Below are positions 4,437 through 45,815 of a DNA stretch of 64,000 nucleotides, one piece after another. The stretch's first letter is position 1; each line of letters starts with the position of its first letter. Source of the stretch: Cyanobacteria bacterium FACHB-63 (GTDB taxonomy: Bacteria > Cyanobacteriota > Cyanobacteriia > Leptolyngbyales > Leptolyngbyaceae); assembly GCA_014695255.1 (NCBI GenBank), contig JACJNX010000075.1, positions 186,001-250,000 on the forward strand, read 5' to 3'. The notes below the pieces were generated by a model that saw nothing but the letters and a program-made list of their open reading frames with translations, did no database searches and was not told the DNA's origin. Position numbers and translations under genes: made by a program.

Positions 4437-4798
4437 TTGACTACTCTCCTCCTCTAAATTACGTCTACTGCAACGCTTCTTTCAGCCTTTTGTTAAAGTG
4501 CCTAATACTGGTAACTTTACCAGACAAAGCATCCCGTAACCCCGCCGTTTCTGCGCTCCAGCCGTTCACAAGAACGTTGAATCGCGACCATGACAAGGGA
4601 TTGATAAAAAATGAAAGTGTATAAAGAAGTGTAACCAGTGTTAGAAGCGATTGCAAGCGAATCGCGATCGTCTGAAATTCTTTCCCATTCCTGCTTTTCA
4701 CTTATTAATATTTCTTAATTTTTGAGCGAAATGAGGTACAACTAAAGAAAGCATTTTGAGTGCCAATCAATCTAAAAATTCTCTTCAAGAGGAAGACT
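4437..4798. promoter_or_regulatory. divergent intergenic region between psbB and a ferredoxin gene
   Basis: A 362-bp region lies between two divergently transcribed genes, so it must hold promoters for both. An AGAGGAAG ribosome-binding site precedes the ferredoxin ATG and TCCTCCTCT (AGAGGAGGA on the minus strand) precedes psbB. The stretch near 4700-4745 is AT-rich. A 78-codon minus frame inside it resembles nothing and is not called. Confidence 0.6.
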
Positions 4799-5170
4799 AT
4801 GCAACCAGCAGACACCGATCTCCAACCCGTTGAAGAAGCTGTCGTTCAGGAGCCACCGAAACCTGCATTCCAGTCTGCCAGCATCAATTTTGTCAAAGAA
4901 GGTAAAGAAGTGGTCGCGGCTCAAGGCGCGAATCTGCGGATTAAAGCGATCGAGAATCAAGTTGATCTCTACACCTTTGGTGGCAAGTTAATGAACTGCG
5001 GCGGCAACGGTCAATGTGGCACTTGCATTGTCGAAGTGATTGAAGGGATGGAAAATCTCTCGCCGCGCACTGCATTCGAGGAGCGCAAATTAAAGAAAAA
5101 ACCTGCTTCTTATCGTCTCGCTTGTCAAGCGCTAGTCAACGGGGCAGTCAGCGTTAAGACCAAGCCTTAG
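4799..5170 (+). CDS. 2Fe-2S ferredoxin
   Basis: A 123-aa soluble electron carrier with a beta-grasp ferredoxin domain in its last 90 residues and a 30-residue acidic N-terminal extension. The cluster ligands are visible: [12 protein letters not shown] gives C-x5-C-x2-C, with the fourth cysteine in RLACQA near the C-terminus. The first spacing is x5, as in adrenodoxin-type ferredoxins, rather than the x4 of the photosynthetic PetF type. The preferred start is ATG 4799, with AGAGGAAG just upstream; the frame itself opens 39 bp earlier. It sits between psbB (divergent) and psbM (48 bp downstream), a context that suggests a role linked to photosystem II. The electron partner is unknown. Confidence 0.85.
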
Positions 5171-5218
5171 TGGTATTCTAGAAAGTGTTGATGCCAAGTT
5201 TAAAAGGGGTCGTGCTTT

Positions 5219-5335
5219 ATGCAAGTTAATGATTTGGGATTTATTGCGTCGATTCTGTTTGTGCTTGTGCCGAGCGTGTTTCTGCTGATTCTCTATATCC
5301 AAACCGCCAGCCGCCAGCCCAAAGACGAGCAATAA
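5219..5335 (+). CDS. psbM: photosystem II small subunit PsbM
   Basis: A 38-aa single-helix protein beginning [19 protein letters not shown], with a short polar tail ending in QPKDEQ. This matches PsbM, which lies at the PSII dimer interface near PsbT. The hydrophobic helix spans about residues 6-28. AAGGGG upstream serves as ribosome-binding site. It is 48 bp downstream of the ferredoxin stop and probably co-transcribed with it, and is followed by a hairpin terminator. Confidence 0.95.
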
Positions 5336-5355
5336 AACTTCACAATCTCACTCAG

Positions 5356-5392
5356 AAAAAGCGCTGAAGATCGAGCATCTTTGGCGCTTTTT
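5356..5392. terminator. bidirectional hairpin terminator after psbM
   Basis: AAAAAGCGC pairs with GCGCTTTTT, and an inner AAGAT/ATCTT stem continues the hairpin. The ends are A-rich and T-rich. It separates psbM from the convergent hypothetical gene. Confidence 0.8.
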
Positions 5393-34360: not shown

Positions 34361-35404
34361 ATGAGCGAGCTAGAACGCTGCTATCAATTATTAGGAATAG
34401 AGCTTGGAGCCTCGCTTGAAGAAGTGAACCAGGCTTACAAAGATCTTGTGTTTATTTGGCATCCAGATCGCGTTCCCAAGGATAATCCGCGTTTGGTTCA
34501 AAAAGCAGAAGCAAAGATCAAAGAGCTAAACCATGCGCGGGATACGCTGCGATCGCACTTGAAAAATGGAACGGCTGCGAAACCCACTGCGGCACAGCCG
34601 AAGCCTGCATCGCAAACCTACTACCAGTCCTACTATTACCGCCCACCAACTCACTCGACTAACGCTCAAACGAATGGGAAGTCCGGACAGGCTCACGGGC
34701 ATTCCACCAACGGGCATTCTCAGGGTCACTCAACGAATGAGCATTCGGCGAATGGTCATTCGTCAAACGGGCATTCGTCAACTGGTCACTCGTCAAACGG
34801 GCATTCGTCAAACGGGCACACCAATCCCCGTCCGAATTACCAAACTTATCAGCCCTATCCTCGTCCGAACTATTCTGCAAATGGTCGATCGGATCAGACG
34901 CGATCGACCGATGCGAGCCGAAAAGCTGAACCGCCTAAATCTCCAGACAGTACGCAAAATTATTACCGTCAGTCGCATTACCGCGCCGAGTATCACCACC
35001 CACCGAAATCTCCGGCACGTCCTCAAATGCAGGATATGACCGGGAAGGACTTGAGCGGACAGAACTTGAAGGAGAAGGACCTCTCTGGCTACAATCTCAG
35101 TCGCGCCAATCTCTCTCGTGCCGACCTCAGCGACACGTTTATGCACAAGGTAAATCTTGAAGGGGCGAAGCTGGAGAAAGCGAATTTGTTTCGAGCGAAC
35201 TTGCTAGAAGCGAATTTGTGCGGGGCGGATTTGCGCGAAGCGAATTTAATTGGTGCAGATTTGAGTGGAGCCGATTTACGCGGGGCAGATTTGCGCGGGG
35301 CAAAAGTCGGCTTTGAAGATCGGGTGATGGTAAAACTCACTGGAGCAAATCTGCAAGGCGCAATCATGCCCAACGGTAAAGTTCACGGAGCGCAGTCGTC
35401 TTAA
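34361..35404 (+). CDS. J-domain protein with His-rich GHSSN tract and pentapeptide repeats
   Basis: A 347-aa three-part protein. Residues of about 1-70 are a J domain (YQLLGIELGASLEEVNQAYK and the catalytic HPD in IWHPDRVPKD), which would stimulate a DnaK-type chaperone. The middle (about 75-215) is disordered, Tyr/Pro- and His-rich, with at least six near-identical GHSSN units encoded by a 15-bp DNA repeat. The C-terminal 110 residues are pentapeptide repeats of the A(D/N)Lxx type, forming a beta-helix. DnaJ-pentapeptide fusions are known in cyanobacteria; the His tract is the odd part and might bind metal. The target of the chaperone is unknown. Confidence 0.85.
   Translation: MSELERCYQLLGIELGASLEEVNQAYKDLVFIWHPDRVPKDNPRLVQKAEAKIKELNHARDTLRSHLKNGTAAKPTAAQPKPASQTYYQSYYYRPPTHSTNAQTNGKSGQAHGHSTNGHSQGHSTNEHSANGHSSNGHSSTGHSSNGHSSNGHTNPRPNYQTYQPYPRPNYSANGRSDQTRSTDASRKAEPPKSPDSTQNYYRQSHYRAEYHHPPKSPARPQMQDMTGKDLSGQNLKEKDLSGYNLSRANLSRADLSDTFMHKVNLEGAKLEKANLFRANLLEANLCGADLREANLIGADLSGADLRGADLRGAKVGFEDRVMVKLTGANLQGAIMPNGKVHGAQSS
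34695..34822 (+). repeat. 15-bp coding tandem repeat (GHSSN units)
   Basis: Units of the type GGGCATTCGTCAAAC recur in register with the reading frame. They encode GHSTN, GHSQ, GHSTN, EHSAN, GHSSN, GHSST, GHSSN and GHSSN. The later copies are nearly identical at DNA level, indicating recent expansion by slippage or unequal exchange. Confidence 0.85.
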
Positions 35405-36738: not shown

Positions 36739-38190
36739 TTAAGCTTCAACCTCCAGAGAGCCAACCGGGTAAGCAATACAAGACAGCACAAAACCCTTTT
36801 GCTGATCTGCGATCGCTAATGCTGTCGGGGAAGATTGATACCGAACCTGCCCCTTACGCACTTTCACTTTACAAATTCCACAAGCTCCAGCGCGACAAGA
36901 ACGGCGAATCTGAATCCCTTCTTGTTCTGCAATCTCCAAAATCGGAGTAATGTTATCTACTACAGCTTGCTGCTTGGATTCAGTAAAGTAAACTGTGGGA
37001 GCCTCATCAGGCTGAAGAGTGTTTTGGTCTAGCCTGATCGTCGGTAGCTCAGAAGCTGCCTGTTGCTGCGATTGTATCAAGGAGTGATCCCCGAAGCTTT
37101 CCTCTTGATAGTTTTGCATCGGAAACTTCAGGTTTTCTAAAGCAGACCGAATGCTTTGCATAAATCCAGTTGAGCCACACACGAAAACCGATCGCTCAAG
37201 CAGATCCGGAACCACCAACGCCAACATCGCCTCAGAAACGCGCCCAGTCAGACCCATCCAAGCGGGTTGAGCGCGAGTGATAGTGACTGCAAGCCGTAAG
37301 TTCGGCATCTGTGCTGCGATCGCTTCGAGTTCTCTGCGGAAAATAATCTGATCTGGAGAAGTAGCACTATGCAGAAAGACAACATCACAGTCAATCAAAG
37401 TATCTTGTATCCAGCGCAGCATTGACATCATCGGGGTAACGCCGCTTCCAGCCGAAACCAACAGCAGCTTCGCAGGCACATCAGGAACACAGGTAAATCG
37501 CCCGATCGCTCCACCGATCAGCTTGACGCAATCCCCCACTTTGAGCTGATCATGCAGCCAATTCGAGACAAGACCAGGAGGATATTCTGACTGATCCGGG
37601 GGACTGGGAACCCGCTTAACGGTGAGACTCAGATGGTAAGGACGAGTCGGAGAAGAAGAAATCGAGTAAGGGCGAATCACAGATTTGCCATTGATGATCA
37701 CTTCTAAATTGACAAACTGACCCGGTTTGTAGCAGAACTGCACCGCAGGCTCTGCCACAAAATGAAAGGTCTTGACATCAGGAGTTTCATTAACAATGCG
37801 ACGACAGCGACACACTAGATCTTCAGCTTGCCAAGTGGGTATCGAAGGCGCGATCGTACCTGTCACAGCGTCTACTGGCGTTAATGCCTCAATGTGTAGA
37901 AACGTTCCTCCTAATTGCAGCAGATCGCCTGATTGCAGTTGACGAGGTTCTTCAGCTGGAACAATCTCACCGTTGAGCATTGATCCAGATGCACTTCCCG
38001 TATCAATAAAGTAGTAAGCACTATTACGGTAGATAATTCGTCCATGCACACGACTGATCTCTGGACTCGCAAGCACTAAATCACAAGTCATACTCCGCCC
38101 GATCACCCACTCTGTTTGATCCGGGTGAGAGCGAAGCTGATGAACTTGAAACTCTCCTTGCTCAAAGTTAACTGATTTCAGCATTAACAT
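36739..38190 (-). CDS. FHA domain / ferredoxin-NAD(P) reductase / 2Fe-2S ferredoxin fusion
   Basis: A 483-aa three-part cytoplasmic protein. Residues of about 25-95 are an FHA domain (VIGRSMTCDLVL, ISRVHGRI, SGSMLNGE), which reads phosphothreonine. Residues of about 125-345 form an FAD/NAD reductase, with the flavin motif RPYSISSSP and the NAD motif SAGSGVTPMMSML. The last 90 residues are a plant-type ferredoxin domain with C-x4-C-x2-C in SCRAGACGIC and the fourth Cys in VLSCIAYP. The reductase-ferredoxin half resembles Hcr/VanB-type reductases; the N-terminal FHA makes it unusual. GAGG lies 9 nt before the ATG. The start is 19 bp after the iron-sulfur membrane gene, so they are co-transcribed. 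Confidence 0.88.
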   Translation of the reverse strand: MLMLKSVNFEQGEFQVHQLRSHPDQTEWVIGRSMTCDLVLASPEISRVHGRIIYRNSAYYFIDTGSASGSMLNGEIVPAEEPRQLQSGDLLQLGGTFLHIEALTPVDAVTGTIAPSIPTWQAEDLVCRCRRIVNETPDVKTFHFVAEPAVQFCYKPGQFVNLEVIINGKSVIRPYSISSSPTRPYHLSLTVKRVPSPPDQSEYPPGLVSNWLHDQLKVGDCVKLIGGAIGRFTCVPDVPAKLLLVSAGSGVTPMMSMLRWIQDTLIDCDVVFLHSATSPDQIIFRRELEAIAAQMPNLRLAVTITRAQPAWMGLTGRVSEAMLALVVPDLLERSVFVCGSTGFMQSIRSALENLKFPMQNYQEESFGDHSLIQSQQQAASELPTIRLDQNTLQPDEAPTVYFTESKQQAVVDNITPILEIAEQEGIQIRRSCRAGACGICKVKVRKGQVRYQSSPTALAIADQQKGFVLSCIAYPVGSLEVEA

Positions 38191-38209
38191 TAGGCAGAAC
38201 CTCGTTAAA

Positions 38210-39898
38210 TCAATTGTTGAAGCGTTGAGAGGGTTTCGCGATCGTTTTTGCCACAGTCAGGGCAGTATGAAGCTGCTCGATCGCCTGCGGGGACAAAACT
38301 TCGGGATTGCTGATGACGATTGCTTCGATCGCCGAGAAATGTTCGGCATCAGTAATCTGGAGTTCTTGCCGCAGTTGATAGCAATATTCAAAGCTATCGG
38401 AGACACTGACGGTTTGTTGGCGCACTAAGTCTAATACAACTTCGCGATAGGTCTGTAGCCGAATCTGTTGAGAAACACCCTGCAATACTTTCACAAGCGT
38501 ATAGATTTCATCTGGTGTTAAATCATTGATCGATCGCCCCTCCAAAAGCTTAGAATCAAGCGGCAATTTTTGAAGTTGCTTCCGCAAACTGCTTGCCATG
38601 TTCTCCCGCTCATATTGCATTCGAGTCCGGCGCAAAGTGCGGTAAAGCCACAGAGAGCCAACTAAAACAATCAAGGCGTTAAAGGCAAGCAACGGATAGG
38701 TCGGTAATCGATTCAGTGTCGGACGTGCTCCATAGGAAAAGAATGTCCAAAAGGATGCGATCGTAAATAAAGTGAATGCGATATGCTGTGCCTGCTCTTT
38801 TGAGACAGCATGGCCATCAGATCCCGGAAGCCTACGGCACAGTTTTTCCAGGATCAATCCGATTCCAAAGGTAATTGCAACTAACACGGCAAAGGTAATG
38901 AAGACTGCAAGTGCTTTAGGAATTGGAATCGTATGGCGATATAAATAGAAGCCTGCATCAGCTACTTTTGCAACTTGATCCGCTTCGTGTGTCCATGCGC
39001 CTGTAAAATAATAGTCCCAATTACCCGCGTAAAGGAAATAGTACAGATAAAAAGCGATGACCATCCCCAGATAGCCATATTGAACTAGCCTTCGACCCGG
39101 CTTATTAAGTTCAGTCCAATAGCTATTTTCAGCATCAATATCAACGCAGGCAGACTTACAACCGACACAGGCGCTTTGCTCTTGGTCGGTTTCAGGATTT
39201 ACAGTGCGGCACATCGATTGAGTTGTTACTGCTTTCGGTCGATGATAGTTTTGGCTACCGAGCAGCGCTCTCGGACCCGTATACACCATTTGCACAGGTG
39301 CCATTGGGCAGAAATATTGACACCAGCTTTTACCTGCATACAGATAGCCAATCATGATCGCGCAGCAGATTGTGAGAATCAAGAATAGTCCCAGCGAAAC
39401 TCGATCAGAGTTCACATACAGCAAGCGAAGCGCTAAACCCAATACAAATAGACCAAACTGCACATACAAATGATTGCGTCCAAGCCAAGAGTCTGGGCTG
39501 ATGGTTACAACTTCGCGCCGCACTTCACCTGTTGTCCGATCGGTGACTTTCCGGTGTCGCTGCACGCCTAGCGATCGCGGAATCTGAGATAAAAACGAAA
39601 GCGGACAAATGCGCCGCCAAAATTCATGTCCCAGCACCAGCAAAATAAGAATTCCACTAGGAACAATCATTGCCCACCAGATCAACGCACTCATCGAGAA
39701 GGAAGACTGGGGTAAACACGTCTCCCGAATCTTGATGCACTGATCTAAGTTCACATGAAACGGGCTAATGTGATTCGCGGGATCAGTGAATATGGGTGTG
39801 ATGGGATCGTAAAAAAGGGATGCAATCAGTAATAACCAACCGAGAGTTAGCACCCAGCGAACTCGGTGCATGATTTTTTCAGGAACTTGATGCAGCAT
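38210..39898 (-). CDS. polytopic iron-sulfur membrane protein (NapH/NosR-like)
   Basis: A 562-aa protein with about six to eight transmembrane helices. Between them are cysteine motifs seen in NapH/NosR/CcoG-type electron-transfer proteins: RRICPLSFLSQIP, SWCQYFCPMAPVQ and a ferredoxin-like SACVGCKSACVDID. At least one 4Fe-4S cluster is likely. A 170-residue soluble helical C-terminus (from about 390) has no recognised family. No haem-binding CxxCH is present. It is followed 19 bp later by the FHA-reductase gene and preceded by the kinase gene (72-bp gap). The likely job is to move electrons between a soluble reductase and a membrane or periplasmic acceptor. Both that job and the acceptor are inferred. 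Confidence 0.83.
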   Translation of the reverse strand: MLHQVPEKIMHRVRWVLTLGWLLLIASLFYDPITPIFTDPANHISPFHVNLDQCIKIRETCLPQSSFSMSALIWWAMIVPSGILILLVLGHEFWRRICPLSFLSQIPRSLGVQRHRKVTDRTTGEVRREVVTISPDSWLGRNHLYVQFGLFVLGLALRLLYVNSDRVSLGLFLILTICCAIMIGYLYAGKSWCQYFCPMAPVQMVYTGPRALLGSQNYHRPKAVTTQSMCRTVNPETDQEQSACVGCKSACVDIDAENSYWTELNKPGRRLVQYGYLGMVIAFYLYYFLYAGNWDYYFTGAWTHEADQVAKVADAGFYLYRHTIPIPKALAVFITFAVLVAITFGIGLILEKLCRRLPGSDGHAVSKEQAQHIAFTLFTIASFWTFFSYGARPTLNRLPTYPLLAFNALIVLVGSLWLYRTLRRTRMQYERENMASSLRKQLQKLPLDSKLLEGRSINDLTPDEIYTLVKVLQGVSQQIRLQTYREVVLDLVRQQTVSVSDSFEYCYQLRQELQITDAEHFSAIEAIVISNPEVLSPQAIEQLHTALTVAKTIAKPSQRFNN

Positions 39899-39970
39899 AA
39901 GAAATTACCTGTTGTAAGAGTAGCCAGTGTTGCTTAAGGAGTAACAATCAAAGCAGTACTGAGATGAAGG

Positions 39971-41851
39971 CTAATGAATGACGCGATCGGGAATTTGCCA
40001 AAAGCTTAACCGTTGGTTTGTGTTCCAACTGACTAGATAGTCATGTGCCGGACTAAATGCGATCGTTTTCGGATTATCTAGCTTGCCTGCTTCTTGCATC
40101 ACTAGCTTTCCGTCTTTCGGCACCCATGCACGAATACTTCCGTCTTTGTGAACCGTCATTAGATGACGATCGCACTTAGAAACCATAATCGAGTCCGCCG
40201 ATGCTTTCGGTAGCGCTTGTGCCAAGATTTCACGTTTGAGATCCCAGACCAGTCCTCGATCTTTTCCAAAGCTAACCAGCGTGTGATCACTCACGATCTG
40301 TAAGCTTACAATCTCATCGGTATGACCTGAGAAGGTTCGCTCAATTTCCCCGCTGTGTAGATTCCAGACTCGAAGCTGGCGATCGCTACTGGCGGTAATC
40401 AGTCGGTCAGGAGAGGGATAGGTCATCCCTATCACATCGGCTGAGGGAAAATTTTGCGTTTTTAGCAATCCACCCGTTTGTAAGTCCCAGTGACGAATGG
40501 TTCTGTCTTTACCGCTACTGGTCAATGTTTTTAGTCCTGGGCTAAATGCGATCGCAATAACAGATTGCTGGTGCCCCCTAAATTGCCTCAGTAATTGACC
40601 TCGATCGATATCCCAAAGTTGAAGCGTTCCATTTTTGCGCCCACTCACCAGAAACTTGCTGTCTGAGCTAATTGCTAACGTTGTCACAGGTGAACGATCG
40701 GCGGCTAAGGTTGCAACAAGCTTACTATGAGGGAGCGACCATAAACGCAATCGTTGATCGGTTCCTACACTTACCATCACTCGTTTATTCGGCGCGATCA
40801 GCAGTTGATCAATTCCCGATCGCATTGAAACTTCTCGCAGCCTTGTTAACTGATGTTCTGCTTCGGGAAAAAGCTGTTGTTCAAACTGTTCGACGACCGA
40901 TTTTACCGAACGACCGTAACGCCGCTCTAAGTCCTGCAACTGCAAGAATCCAGTTCCGACCAATAGCACCGTACTGGCTGTAAAAATTGCGGGTTGTGCC
41001 CGTGACCAGAGACTTGTGCTGGCTTTAGAGTCTTGCTGTAATTGCTGGAGATCCGACAAAACCTCGGAAACTTGTTGATAACGATCGCTCGATCGACTCC
41101 GCACCATTCGATTCAGAATCGCCAGGAAGTTCGACGGAAGCGATCCCGCTTTTAAGTAACGCTGCCAATCAAGCTCACCCGAAATTAAATCTTGCTTAAA
41201 CTGCTGTGGATCGGTTCGTGTAAGTAAATGAATGACTAGAATGCCTAAAGCGTAAATATCGCTATTCATCTGCGGCATGCCTAAGCATTGCTCATCTGGG
41301 ATATAGCCAGGAGTTCCGATCAGCAATGGGACATCTAAATTTCTCCCAGTTTCCGAACAATAATGAGCTGCGCCAAAATCAATCAAAACAATCTCGCCAG
41401 TGCAACGACGGATGATATTGCTGGAAGTAATGTCACAATGAATGGCTTGGTGAGAATGAACGTAGTCCAGCACCGGAAGCAATTCCAGCAGCAGTGCGAT
41501 CGCTGCCTTTACTGTGAAGCGCTTCTGAGGATTGAGCCAAGCGCTCAAGCTTTCACCTTCAATGTACTCCTGCACTAAGTAAGTCGAATCCTGCTCTTGA
41601 CCATAGGCAAAGAGCGTTGGAATTTGGGAGTAGTTTTGTCCAAGCTGTCCTAGCAAATACGCTTCGTTCTCAAATAAATGACGGGCTGTTTCTAGCGAGA
41701 TTTTGCTGTCTAACGGCAGTTTAAGCTGTTTGACCACGCACAAGGGATGCTGAGGAAGATATTTATCACGAGCGAGGTAAGTCTCGCTAAATCCTCCTGC
41801 GCCTAGTTTCTCTAAAATTAGATAGCGCCCAGTTAATAGTTGCCCAATCAT
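39971..41851 (-). CDS. membrane-anchored Ser/Thr protein kinase with C-terminal WD40 repeats
   Basis: A 626-aa Hanks-type kinase. The kinase domain (about 8-270) has a glycine loop LGAGGFSETYLA, Lys41 in CVVKQLK and DFGAAHYC. The catalytic loop reads HCDITSSN (138-145), in place of the usual HRDxKxxN; the catalytic Asp140 and Asn145 are kept. A transmembrane helix (about 285-305, AIFTASTVLLVGTGFLQL) separates it from WD40 repeats (about 365-620), marked by TLQLWDI, TIRHWDL, QLRVWNL and GLVWDL. I start at ATG 41851, with GAGG nine bases upstream. Activity is likely but not certain. It lies upstream of the iron-sulfur membrane and FHA genes. Confidence 0.87.
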   Translation of the reverse strand: MIGQLLTGRYLILEKLGAGGFSETYLARDKYLPQHPLCVVKQLKLPLDSKISLETARHLFENEAYLLGQLGQNYSQIPTLFAYGQEQDSTYLVQEYIEGESLSAWLNPQKRFTVKAAIALLLELLPVLDYVHSHQAIHCDITSSNIIRRCTGEIVLIDFGAAHYCSETGRNLDVPLLIGTPGYIPDEQCLGMPQMNSDIYALGILVIHLLTRTDPQQFKQDLISGELDWQRYLKAGSLPSNFLAILNRMVRSRSSDRYQQVSEVLSDLQQLQQDSKASTSLWSRAQPAIFTASTVLLVGTGFLQLQDLERRYGRSVKSVVEQFEQQLFPEAEHQLTRLREVSMRSGIDQLLIAPNKRVMVSVGTDQRLRLWSLPHSKLVATLAADRSPVTTLAISSDSKFLVSGRKNGTLQLWDIDRGQLLRQFRGHQQSVIAIAFSPGLKTLTSSGKDRTIRHWDLQTGGLLKTQNFPSADVIGMTYPSPDRLITASSDRQLRVWNLHSGEIERTFSGHTDEIVSLQIVSDHTLVSFGKDRGLVWDLKREILAQALPKASADSIMVSKCDRHLMTVHKDGSIRAWVPKDGKLVMQEAGKLDNPKTIAFSPAHDYLVSWNTNQRLSFWQIPDRVIH

Positions 41852-42602
41852 GGTCACTTGCCTCAATGCACAATGCTGACAGGCATCGTTGTCTGTGAAA
41901 TCAAAAACTGATTAATCACGCTGCCTGCTGTGAATTTTGCAGCGCTTAAGTTTTGGTCAGGACAATTACAAACTCTACTACGATCGCTGCTGACCTTTAT
42001 CAGCGGACTTTCTAGCTTATTTTGCAAATACTGTCGCAACTCGGATGGGGTGGTAGCAGAAGGTAGAAAGCTACTCAACCTGGAGATTCTAATCTTGGTG
42101 CTGGCTAGATGCTGCCATAATTATAACGATTTATGCGATTTTCGATCACTTAGTTTTGTTAAATTGGAACCAGATTTTAGAAATCTGGTTCCAATTAATT
42201 TATCAATCTATCCTAATTCGGCTCATTCAGTAAGATGGCGATGCTAAGCATAAAACACTGTGGCAATTCTTAAACTGTCACAAGTTCGGCGTACTATTGA
42301 TCTATGATCCCTGAGTCTAAACGCAGATATCAGGCGTGTTCGCGGAAAAACTACGTAGTATTACAGATGCAAACATAAAGCGAATTTGATAAAAATTGCA
42401 ATGGTTTGAGCAAACGATCTCAAACTCCTCCATATTGATCGACAATAAACTAGACTGTAGACGTTTGTGAAATTGGGTGTAGCTGCCAGGAAGTTCATCA
42501 ACCAGGCTGAGTGACTGCAATTTAATCGAGTAACCTGACCACTCGCTTCGATGCGAGAAGGGACGCTCACAGCACTGCAAAACCGACATACTGGCATCAA
42601 AA
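41852..42602. promoter_or_regulatory. 751-bp divergent region between the kinase and PAS genes
   Basis: AT-rich sequence with several short open frames on both strands (up to about 105 codons), none with recognisable composition. It contains the perfect 16-bp-arm hairpin at 42162-42196. It should hold promoters for the minus-strand kinase operon and the plus-strand PAS gene. Confidence 0.5.
42162..42196. repeat. palindromic element with 16-bp arms (AATTRGAAC family)
   Basis: AATTGGAACCAGATTT, then TAG, then its exact reverse complement. One of four palindromes in the window sharing a TAATTRGAA-type outer sequence (also 48668, 48777 and 54376). Confidence 0.9.
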
Positions 42603-44147
42603 ATGATTCTACCTTTTTGGAATATTCCTGAGCTTCAGTCTCGTAAGCTATCAAAATGCCTTGAGCGATCGCTCAAGCCAATTTGTGTGTACGACGATCG
42701 AGGGCGCACGGTTTACGCAAGCCAGAGCTTCTTGGAACTGCTGCAAACTCAAGGGGCGCAAGCCAATTTCTTTGATTGTTTTCCGTCTGCCCTGCGAACA
42801 AAGCTGGTAAAGTTTTGGCACCAAGCTCTAATTGGGGAAACGATTCAGTTCATCGCTCAAATTAAAGACGTAGAGGCGACCCTAAAAGGTTCCCTAGAAT
42901 TTGATGAAACTGTCAAATTAATGTTTTTTACTGCTGCAAGAAGTGATGTAGCAGAAAACACTAATGATCTTACAAGAGCGTATGAAAACGCCGTCTTACG
43001 ATCAGCGCATTCTAACTTAGCAACGGCTCTGATTAATCCAAACGGTGATGTAATTCAGTGCAATCAAAATCTACACAGCTTACTTGGAACAAGTGAGCAA
43101 GATGTAATTAATCTTGAGCAATTTGTGCATCCAGATGACCATCTAATTGATGAACTGCTCAAGCAAGATTTGCTCAACGGAGCGATTGACTCTTACGCGA
43201 TCGAGAAGCGATTTGTTTCTAGAAATTATGATCTACTTTGGCTAAAATTAAACGTTTCAGTGCTAGAAGCTCCAAGCAGTGAGAATGGCTATTTGTCTCA
43301 TTTCGCTGTGATATTAGAAGATATTACAGATCACAAAAAAATCTATAGTACGCTCGTTAGAACCGAAGAGAAATGGAAGACGTTATTCTTAAATAGTCCT
43401 TATTTGTTTATTCAAACTAGCAGCACTGGACAGATTATTCACGTGAGTCCGGCGGTTGAGATGCTGTTGGGCTATCAACCCGAAGAATTGCTGGGTTATC
43501 AAATTAGAGACTTGATACATCCCAGTAATTTGAATGAAGTCAATCTTGCTCTTCAGTTGTGGAGTAATGATATCCAAGCTAAACCAACCGGGATCGAGTG
43601 TTGGTGGAGAGCTAAGTCGAATCGGTGGGTCGCGTTATCCATCCAGGGACAGCGATTTCCGACCATGCTGGAAATCGATGGATTGATGATTAGTGGTCAT
43701 AATATTACCGATCGTAAAGCATTAGAAATTGAACTGAGAGACAACGAAGAGAAGTTTAAATCTCTAGTCGTAAACAGTTTAGGCGCTGTATTTCGTTGCG
43801 ATTCGAGCTATACGATGCAGTTTATAAGCGATAAGACTCAGGAAATTACTGGCTATCCAGCCTCAGTATTTATCAATAATCAAGTTCGATCGTATCTCAG
43901 CATCGTTCATCCAGACGACATTACAATCCTGAAAGATTCGTTAATGCTAGCCATTTTGGATCATCATGCTCATCCGATCGAATATCGAATTATTGATGCA
44001 AATGGACAAATTCGTTGGGTAGCTGAGCGTAAACAAGGATTCTTCAGCCAAAACGGAGACTTATTATGGATCGATGGGTTGCTGTTAGAAATTAGTGATC
44101 GTACACGACTCGAAGTCGAGTTGCCTGATTGGGAGTCAACCTATTAA
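42603..44147 (+). CDS. PAS-domain sensor protein without output domain
   Basis: A 514-aa soluble protein made of about four PAS domains: about 20-110 (divergent), 130-250, 255-375 and 380-505. The last three show the usual PAS/PAC ends (FVHPDD, IHPSN, IVHPDD; DITDHKK, NITDRKA, EISDRTR). It ends shortly after the last PAC motif, with no histidine kinase, GGDEF or other output domain. The next 280 bp hold only a terminator, so this is not a simple frameshift. It diverges from the kinase operon. It may pass signals by protein contact, perhaps to the adjacent kinase (inference). Confidence 0.85.
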   Translation: MILPFWNIPELQSRKLSKCLERSLKPICVYDDRGRTVYASQSFLELLQTQGAQANFFDCFPSALRTKLVKFWHQALIGETIQFIAQIKDVEATLKGSLEFDETVKLMFFTAARSDVAENTNDLTRAYENAVLRSAHSNLATALINPNGDVIQCNQNLHSLLGTSEQDVINLEQFVHPDDHLIDELLKQDLLNGAIDSYAIEKRFVSRNYDLLWLKLNVSVLEAPSSENGYLSHFAVILEDITDHKKIYSTLVRTEEKWKTLFLNSPYLFIQTSSTGQIIHVSPAVEMLLGYQPEELLGYQIRDLIHPSNLNEVNLALQLWSNDIQAKPTGIECWWRAKSNRWVALSIQGQRFPTMLEIDGLMISGHNITDRKALEIELRDNEEKFKSLVVNSLGAVFRCDSSYTMQFISDKTQEITGYPASVFINNQVRSYLSIVHPDDITILKDSLMLAILDHHAHPIEYRIIDANGQIRWVAERKQGFFSQNGDLLWIDGLLLEISDRTRLEVELPDWESTY

Positions 44148-44187
44148 TTAAATGGTTTAGCACCTATCGGTAGAAAGATTCTTTTAA

Positions 44188-44217
44188 GCTCAGAGCCGTC
44201 ATCGCCTCTGGGCTTTT
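44188..44217 (+). terminator. hairpin terminator after the PAS gene
   Basis: GCTCAGAG pairs with CTCTGGGC (one G-T pair), followed by TTTTCTG. It lies 40 bp after the PAS stop. Confidence 0.75.
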
Positions 44218-44426
44218 CTGTGTAATATTTGAAACTTCGTTACTTTCTAACCTCATTAACTCTTCATAAAGCGCTTATTCCCTTTTTCCAATCTTTTACT
44301 TAGAAGCTATAGATTTAGGCGGCTTTAGGATAGAATTAGCCTATGTAAAGAGCCAGTTTGGATATGAACAGCTAGTTTACTAAGCTGTTCATTGTATTTA
44401 AGTTCCATAATTATTTTGCCCTAATT

Positions 44427-45815
44427 ATGAGTCGTGAAGTTCCCGAAGCGGACGTTGATGAGCGGCTGATTGAAGCAACGATTAAGCCAGAAGTTGATGC
44501 AAATCAGGAACTTCTTCAAACTGAGCTTGATCCAGAAGATTTGGTGCCTGAGCGCGATCGAGTGAGTGAAAGTGACTTGCTAAAGAGCACAACCCAGTTA
44601 TCACCGAAAGCAAAGATTACTCTAATTCAAAAATTAATTTCTCAACTCGAACCAGATAGCGTTCAAGCCGTCGTGGAATTCGGATTAAAAGAGATTGCCC
44701 ATCATCATCGCCGTCATGTAAGTTCAGTCGAACACAACACCCGTCTACTGCTTAAGAAGGATTACAGCTATCAAGCGCGTGGATTAAGTGAGCCAACGCA
44801 ATATTTTGTCTATCTCAGGCGGCGTAAACCCAAGCTCGATCGCTACATTGGCGCATTATTTCATGTTCCTCAAGGGTGTGCTTTATCTTACTTTTTAGAT
44901 ACTGAGGAACGCTTGATCTTCAATCCGCCGCACAATGTATTTGAACTGCACGATAGCAACCAACCGAATCATACTCAAGTCGTCCGTCTAATATGCTTGG
45001 AGCCTCCTCCGCCCGACTATACGTTTGATAAGCAGCAAAATGATGTGCCAGAAATCAAATTGCACCTCGAATACCTGCATCCTCAGACGTATCAATTGCT
45101 CTCAAAACAGACTTATCCGTTTCCCAGGTGTATGTATGAGGGAGGTGAACTCGACCGATATCGTTGGGAAGTGAAAGCGATCGAGCTTTCTCCTGAACTC
45201 TCCGTATCGCCCCGGAACGCATTACCAACCTCTGTTGCTGAACCTTTGCTTGCTGTAGATGCTTCACCTGCTCAATTTGATCTCGATGCACCCCTAATTG
45301 ATCGATCTGAAGCGATCTCGCCTCAATTTTCCAATGAAGCGATCTCGATCGAACCGCAACGTCAAGTGCTAGAACTGCAACCAAAACTGCTCACCTATTA
45401 CCTATCGCAGCAAAATGATGCCGATGCAATCTTGAAGCGAATGCGGCTGTGGGTGACTTGGAGCGAAAAAGCAATGCCACAGTCAAGATGGGAAATTGTT
45501 CAGGAGAATGGCAGCTATACGCTGATGAATGCGCGATTTAAGCGACGAATTCTCCGATTTTCACCGGCTTCTAACTCGATCGTGCTTGAGAACTCACTGC
45601 CTGTATTGATGAAGTGGTTTCAGGATTTGAGTCTAGCTGTATCTCAGTCTCAAAGCCGCAGGCAGTATAGCGCAACGCAATTAAAACTGGCTCACAGCTT
45701 GTTTATTGAAATGAGTCTTCCTCAAACTGATCCGGCGATCGTGCTGAAGAAGTTATTCGGAGTGAAGTTTGCTAACTCTCCAACGAGTCAGAGTAATTCT
45801 TCTCAAGGAGTCTAA
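44427..45815 (+). CDS. hypothetical protein, 462 aa
   Basis: A large soluble protein I do not recognise. The first 75 residues are acidic and low-complexity (Glu/Asp). A conserved-looking core follows (about 80-250), with HHHRRHVSSVEHNTRLLL, a YFVYLRRRKPKLDRYIGALF strand pair and RLICLEPPPPDYTFD. A flexible Ser/Pro segment spans about 255-320. The C-terminal 140 residues are helical, with LRLWVTWSE-like and WEIVQENGSYTLM motifs. There is no signal peptide or membrane segment. Promoter-like AT-rich sequence and a hairpin downstream indicate a monocistronic gene. The frame is clearly coding, but the function is unknown. Confidence 0.75.
   Translation: MSREVPEADVDERLIEATIKPEVDANQELLQTELDPEDLVPERDRVSESDLLKSTTQLSPKAKITLIQKLISQLEPDSVQAVVEFGLKEIAHHHRRHVSSVEHNTRLLLKKDYSYQARGLSEPTQYFVYLRRRKPKLDRYIGALFHVPQGCALSYFLDTEERLIFNPPHNVFELHDSNQPNHTQVVRLICLEPPPPDYTFDKQQNDVPEIKLHLEYLHPQTYQLLSKQTYPFPRCMYEGGELDRYRWEVKAIELSPELSVSPRNALPTSVAEPLLAVDASPAQFDLDAPLIDRSEAISPQFSNEAISIEPQRQVLELQPKLLTYYLSQQNDADAILKRMRLWVTWSEKAMPQSRWEIVQENGSYTLMNARFKRRILRFSPASNSIVLENSLPVLMKWFQDLSLAVSQSQSRRQYSATQLKLAHSLFIEMSLPQTDPAIVLKKLFGVKFANSPTSQSNSSQGV

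Follow-up and report, generated by a model that had tools for sequence, protein, structure and literature searches.

We tentatively propose that three adjacent genes in a 64,000-nucleotide stretch of DNA from Cyanobacteria bacterium FACHB-63, henceforth referred to as the window, encode a regulated transmembrane electron-export module that has O2 as its likely acceptor and is gated by signalling. The predicted export of electrons across the membrane by two of the gene products, an FHA-reductase and an iron-sulfur membrane protein, is well supported by domain content, topology and near-obligate pairing of the genes. Periplasmic O2 is probably the acceptor, judging from gene neighbourhood in relatives. 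The signalling architecture attached to the pair is observed as such, and it would serve to gate the activity.

Layout and conservation of the locus

The trio (kinase, Fe-S membrane protein and FHA-reductase) lies operon-like on the minus strand, with open reading frames where the first-pass annotation had placed them (Table 1). The genes are separated by 72 bp (kinase/membrane protein) and 19 bp (membrane protein/reductase). The kinase gene start given in the table is a TTG, and an alternative ATG start would move it to 41851. Two divergently transcribed genes adjoin the kinase at window positions 42603-45815; one encodes a multi-PAS protein, the other a protein of 462 aa that matched nothing in Pfam. 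Both (clusters c4 and c5) are also found beside the module in many related Leptolyngbyaceae-type loci. At 34361-35404 the window encodes a DnaJ domain joined to pentapeptide repeats via a low-complexity NGHS-rich linker.

Table 1 Genes of the module in the window and the basis of each assignment.
Feature	Position	Strand	Basis
Membrane Ser/Thr protein kinase with WD40	39971..41866	-	Pfam; positional orthologue at 21 related loci
Fe-S membrane protein of ~8 TM helices, distant NapH/CcoG relative	38210..39898	-	562 aa; alignment, AlphaFold model
FHA-FAD-NAD(P)-2Fe-2S reductase	36739..38190	-	Pfam; residue conservation among 75 homologues

Genome contigs yielded 251 relatives of the membrane protein, from which 80 loci were kept. 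All 80 are cyanobacterial by title, save for a single MAG named as a Gracilibacteria bin, and none is an occurrence clearly outside Cyanobacteria. The order kinase/membrane protein/reductase is kept in 21 of the 23 related loci of Leptolyngbyaceae type that offer sufficient sequence, so the three-gene neighbourhood first described from this genome extends well beyond it. Of the four window-clade loci outside the 21, two (L012 and L025) are truncated at a contig end and two are incomplete, L026 being without the kinase and L031 without both kinase and reductase. In a set of 386 genomes from the phylum, the membrane protein (strong match) was present in 50 and the reductase (E<=1e-40) in 16, with both in 15 (Fisher p 9e-14, kinship ignored).

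Recurrence of the trio in 21 further loci, together with a reductase that is hardly ever found apart from its membrane partner (15/16), makes a chance neighbourhood unlikely. It is also very improbable that the genes are neighbours merely through lineage history, without functional coupling. Surrounding genes in the window clade are indeed partly syntenic (clusters c4, c5 and c8), but reductase and membrane protein stay paired where all surrounding genes differ and co-occur genome-wide, and in Nostocales a kinase gene again adjoins the pair, in another order and with another sensor domain.

Regulatory parts vary considerably around the same core. The Nostocales membrane protein is ~1100 aa long and carries C-terminal FHA and cNMP-binding domains; next to it comes the FHA-reductase and, in many cases, a CHASE2-kinase. 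EF-hands or a cNMP domain are attached to the core in genomes of the Microcystis, Crocosphaera and Synechocystis types, where no FHA-reductase adjoins it; the EF-hand members, among them L098, L101 and L110, end in EF-hand pairs. On the branch that includes haloperoxidase neighbours, CHAT-CHASE2 or CHASE2-HATPase proteins follow the pair and replace the Ser/Thr kinase (L152:4250-6568, L153:573-2474). The kinase is thus only one among several interchangeable inputs (FHA plus cNMP, EF-hand, CHASE2 kinases, CHAT-CHASE2).

Other genes were seen beside the core in particular lineages. A ParA/NUBPL-like P-loop ATPase is encoded just upstream of the membrane protein in Crocosphaera/Cyanothece (L080:6838-7614, L079, L081, L085). 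A cupin adjoins the module in several lineages (L040:7208-7879, L041:14659-15267, L051:2179-2850, L141:9906-10493), and these cupins, judged by eye, resemble cysteine-dioxygenase-type proteins.

Components of the predicted electron route

The kinase gene product matches Pkinase (PF00069, 6e-28) and WD40 (5e-28). Its kinase domain (residues ~17-263) is of Hanks type, with the catalytic Lys46, Asp145 (HCD) and DFG 163-165 present. A single TM helix follows at ~292-310, and the WD40 repeats, C-terminal of this helix, probably lie across the membrane from the kinase domain.

The reductase comprises FHA (PF00498, 2e-17; residues 28-94), FAD_binding_6 (135-232), NAD_binding_1 (244-348) and Fer2 (406-475), the last a plant-type 2Fe-2S ferredoxin domain. 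The FHA assignment is borne out by R32, S46 and N73, the phosphothreonine-binding Arg/Ser/Asn on which the first-pass annotation depended, each of which is kept in 73 of 75 homologues. Taken together, R32, S46, H49 and N73 and the cluster cysteines C432, C437, C440 and C471 are kept in 72-74 of the 75. Conservation of R173xYS, GSGVTP and the four cluster cysteines (CX4CX2C...C) identifies the remainder as an FNR-like reductase with a plant-type 2Fe-2S domain. The best NCBIfam match was GbcB (NF058606), and identity with that equivalog was rejected at 321 bits against a curated cut-off of 500. A fused form was observed at L163:6661-9384, where an FHA-FAD-NAD reductase is joined to an MFS transporter domain in a 907-aa protein without a Fer2 match.

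The membrane protein of the window had no Pfam match at 1e-3. Forty-one relatives align with it across the whole core at 47-82% identity, and 41 of the 42 family members match Fer4_5 (PF12801) weakly (E<0.01); the window protein scored 17.5 bits against a cut-off of 22, which some relatives exceed. The CcoG model TIGR02745 matched it at E 7.7e-4, with 18.5 bits against a cut-off of 316.7. This model and the NapH model (TIGR02163) each match 8 family members, weakly, and hhalign to E. coli NapH (Prob 17%, E 0.0014) covered the second CX3CP region only. Membership in NapH, CcoG or Fer4_5 was rejected on these curated thresholds, and the protein is, by its sequence, a distant NapH/CcoG relative.

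The second CX3CP motif (C193-x3-C197-P198) is invariant in the family, and the first is degenerate in all 42 sequences, with its first Cys lost (W94-x3-C98-P99); only one of the two CX3CP motifs that define the NapH/CcoG/Fer4_5 superfamily is therefore intact. Invariant C98, C193, C197, C230, C244, C247 and C251 lie on the face predicted to be cytosolic by charge, and a further invariant pair, C54/C61, lies in the first periplasmic loop. H91 and H372 are invariant as well, each close to the cytosolic end of its own TM helix, and could supply remaining cluster ligands or hold a different cofactor. T123, T232, T421 and T548 are cytosolic and conserved in the window clade, as candidate phosphothreonine sites only.

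The AlphaFold model was of medium quality (pLDDT 77, pTM 0.75). With it, Foldseek returned no match at E<=0.001 and VIA-align gave fragment matches only (best Z 5.0), which are uninformative as to kinship; a profile search of PDB sequences recovered no relative. A flavinylation motif of the [S/T]GAT type is absent from the window protein, whose periplasmic loops measure no more than about 40 residues, and the flavinylated NosR/PceC subgroup, with its FMN domain, was rejected on these grounds. The earlier description as a NapH/NosR-like 4Fe-4S protein consequently stands as to a polytopic, distant NapH/NosR relative, and requires amendment as to the degenerate first motif and the missing flavinylation motif. 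No ferric-reductase TM domain (PF01794) was found in Pfam scans of the membrane protein, which excludes membership in the NOX/ferric reductase superfamily, and no haem or O2-activating site was recognised in the module, which weighs against O2 as acceptor. Neither was a conserved terminal oxidoreductase found beside the pair in the window clade, in agreement with the first-pass annotation, which had seen no haem and no such enzyme.

The route suggested by that annotation, from NAD(P)H through FAD and 2Fe-2S to the membrane Fe-S protein, is supported by these domains and by the topology. The FHA-reductase would oxidise NAD(P)H and pass single electrons via FAD to its 2Fe-2S domain, from which they would reach the 4Fe-4S clusters on the cytosolic face of the ~8-TM protein and then the periplasmic side. 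There, O2 would take up the electrons to give superoxide and hence H2O2, so that the pair would be NADPH-oxidase-like with iron-sulfur clusters in place of haem. In the window lineage the membrane kinase, with its WD40 part outward, would gate the flow, and the FHA domain would read phosphothreonine, either on the membrane protein, where the first-pass annotation suggested docking, or just as well on the autophosphorylated kinase. In other lineages the gate would be formed by FHA and cNMP domains, EF-hands or CHASE2 kinases on or beside the same core.

Neighbouring genes and the electron acceptor

In an even draw of 173 Nostocaceae genomes, 43 contained the reductase. In 19 of these 43, from three genera, the reductase gene is followed on its own strand, at a distance of 240-1220 bp, by a gene for a Cu/Zn SOD with a lipoprotein-type signal. 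Co-occurrence of SOD and module was absent phylum-wide (p 0.57), and the SOD argument accordingly concerns adjacency within Nostocaceae only.

Vanadium haloperoxidases, which consume H2O2, were found as a second class of neighbour. An enzyme of the VCPO/NapH1-3 type (PDB 9ptr, E 2.5e-53) is encoded directly 3' of the reductase in L145, L153 and L154 and, in L161, 1.2 kb ahead of the membrane-protein gene; in L171, from another family, a frame-shifted copy lies 1.1 kb downstream. The names NapH1 and NapH3 in PDB titles denote haloperoxidases and are unrelated to the nitrate-reductase protein NapH. A Corallina-type bromoperoxidase (PDB 1qhb, E 3e-115), unrelated to the VCPO/NapH1-3 type, is encoded directly 5' of the membrane protein in L151, L155 and L172. 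All three full-length copies found in the genus of these loci adjoin the pair, and a fourth, divergent homologue lies elsewhere. In L040, too, a divergent protein matching VCPO_N was seen near the pair. Co-occurrence of vanadium haloperoxidase and reductase was not significant alone (2 genomes, p 0.21), though the genes are adjacent in both.

The SOD and the two unrelated haloperoxidases share superoxide/H2O2 chemistry, which points to O2 as the acceptor. Counting against this, no SOD or haloperoxidase is encoded near the window locus, and the window genome contains neither a Cu/Zn SOD (PF00080) nor a PF22778 haloperoxidase anywhere. The function is transferred to this locus through the core tree, in which the window clade joins first the SOD clade (support 0.82) and then the haloperoxidase clade (0.78), both with moderate support. 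DPI, an inhibitor of flavoenzymes, often affects extracellular superoxide production in phytoplankton, cyanobacteria among them, with Synechococcus WH 5701 as an exception (PMC12684733), and this sensitivity is counted in favour of O2 as acceptor and of the NOX-like reading.

The same neighbours were weighed against other acceptors. Reduction of periplasmic Cu(II) or Fe(III) by the pair, for metal uptake or enzyme metallation, is unlikely. It would suit the nearest characterised relatives by profile, CcoG and NapH, the former of which has been reported as a cupric reductase (PMC8267372), as well as the copper requirement of Cu/Zn SOD and the periplasmic C54/C61, which could bind metal. The score is nevertheless far under the CcoG cut-off, the neighbours examined included no recognisable metal transporter or chaperone, and metal reduction has no obvious use to haloperoxidases, which need vanadate(V) and H2O2.

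A role in oxidative-stress defence, with exported electrons reducing periplasmic superoxide, peroxide or oxidised thiols and with SOD and haloperoxidase as part of the same protective set, appears rather improbable. The examined neighbours included no thioredoxin-like, peroxiredoxin or Msr partner, and supply of H2O2 explains two unrelated H2O2-dependent halogenating enzymes more readily, even though the SOD and haloperoxidase neighbours fit a defensive role too and C54/C61 could be a redox-active dithiol.

Delivery of electrons to the quinone pool, a periplasmic cytochrome c or another enzyme, with no ROS function, is similarly doubtful. In L171 a c-type cytochrome, a possible alternative acceptor, is encoded at 4784-5356, co-directional with the membrane protein and 600 bp upstream of it, so that a protein acceptor may operate in some members, and NapH-like proteins are modular electron conduits tied to many oxidoreductases (PMC8238504). 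The cytochrome gene was found at this one locus only, and the pair in the window clade has no conserved terminal oxidoreductase adjoining it.

Electron export to periplasmic O2 is therefore the reading we prefer. A more specific form, held with greater reserve, is that the pair is a haem-free NADPH-oxidase-like enzyme that evolved in cyanobacteria from NapH-like Fe-S proteins, produces superoxide/H2O2 outside the cytoplasm under kinase/FHA, Ca2+ (EF-hand) or cyclic-nucleotide control, and feeds a dedicated secreted SOD and vanadium haloperoxidases. If this is true, the module supplies candidate genes for the extracellular superoxide/H2O2 measured in several cyanobacterial species and an H2O2 source for cyanobacterial vanadium haloperoxidases. 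Signal-gated oxidant export would then have been built twice, on haem (NOX) and on Fe-S clusters, with similar regulatory add-ons. Even with another acceptor, the genes would encode a transmembrane redox pair gated by phosphorylation or second messengers, and no description of the membrane-protein/FHA-reductase pair was found in the literature searched.

Comparison with known systems

GbcB/Hcr-type reductases share the domain order FAD-NAD-Fer2 with the window reductase, which differs in its N-terminal FHA domain and in having a near-obligate membrane partner in place of a Rieske oxygenase or Hcp. The membrane protein has in common with NapH, NosR, PceC and CcoG several TM helices, CX3CP-type cysteines, a ferredoxin-like cysteine set on the cytosolic side and predicted transmembrane electron transfer. 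It differs from them in the degenerate first CX3CP motif, the single C-x13-C-x2-C-x3-C set, the number of TM helices (about 8) and the lack of an FMN-binding domain; its family also has a periplasmic Cys pair, a C-terminal helical or regulatory tail and a feed from an NAD(P)H reductase. NapH-like conduits with interchangeable redox partners, as here, have been catalogued in ApbE-flavinylation clusters, a class reportedly under-represented in Cyanobacteria (PMC8238504), whereas the window protein is without the ApbE-type flavinylation motif.

The likeness to NOX5/RBOH/DUOX and the bacterial SpNOX is one of working, read here from the genes: an NAD(P)H-FAD dehydrogenase would feed a membrane conduit, some members would be under EF-hand or phosphorylation control, and SOD and peroxidases are associated with the system. 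Unlike NOX, the module would conduct electrons through Fe-S clusters instead of a PF01794 haem domain, and its dehydrogenase part is a soluble FHA protein of its own that includes a 2Fe-2S domain.
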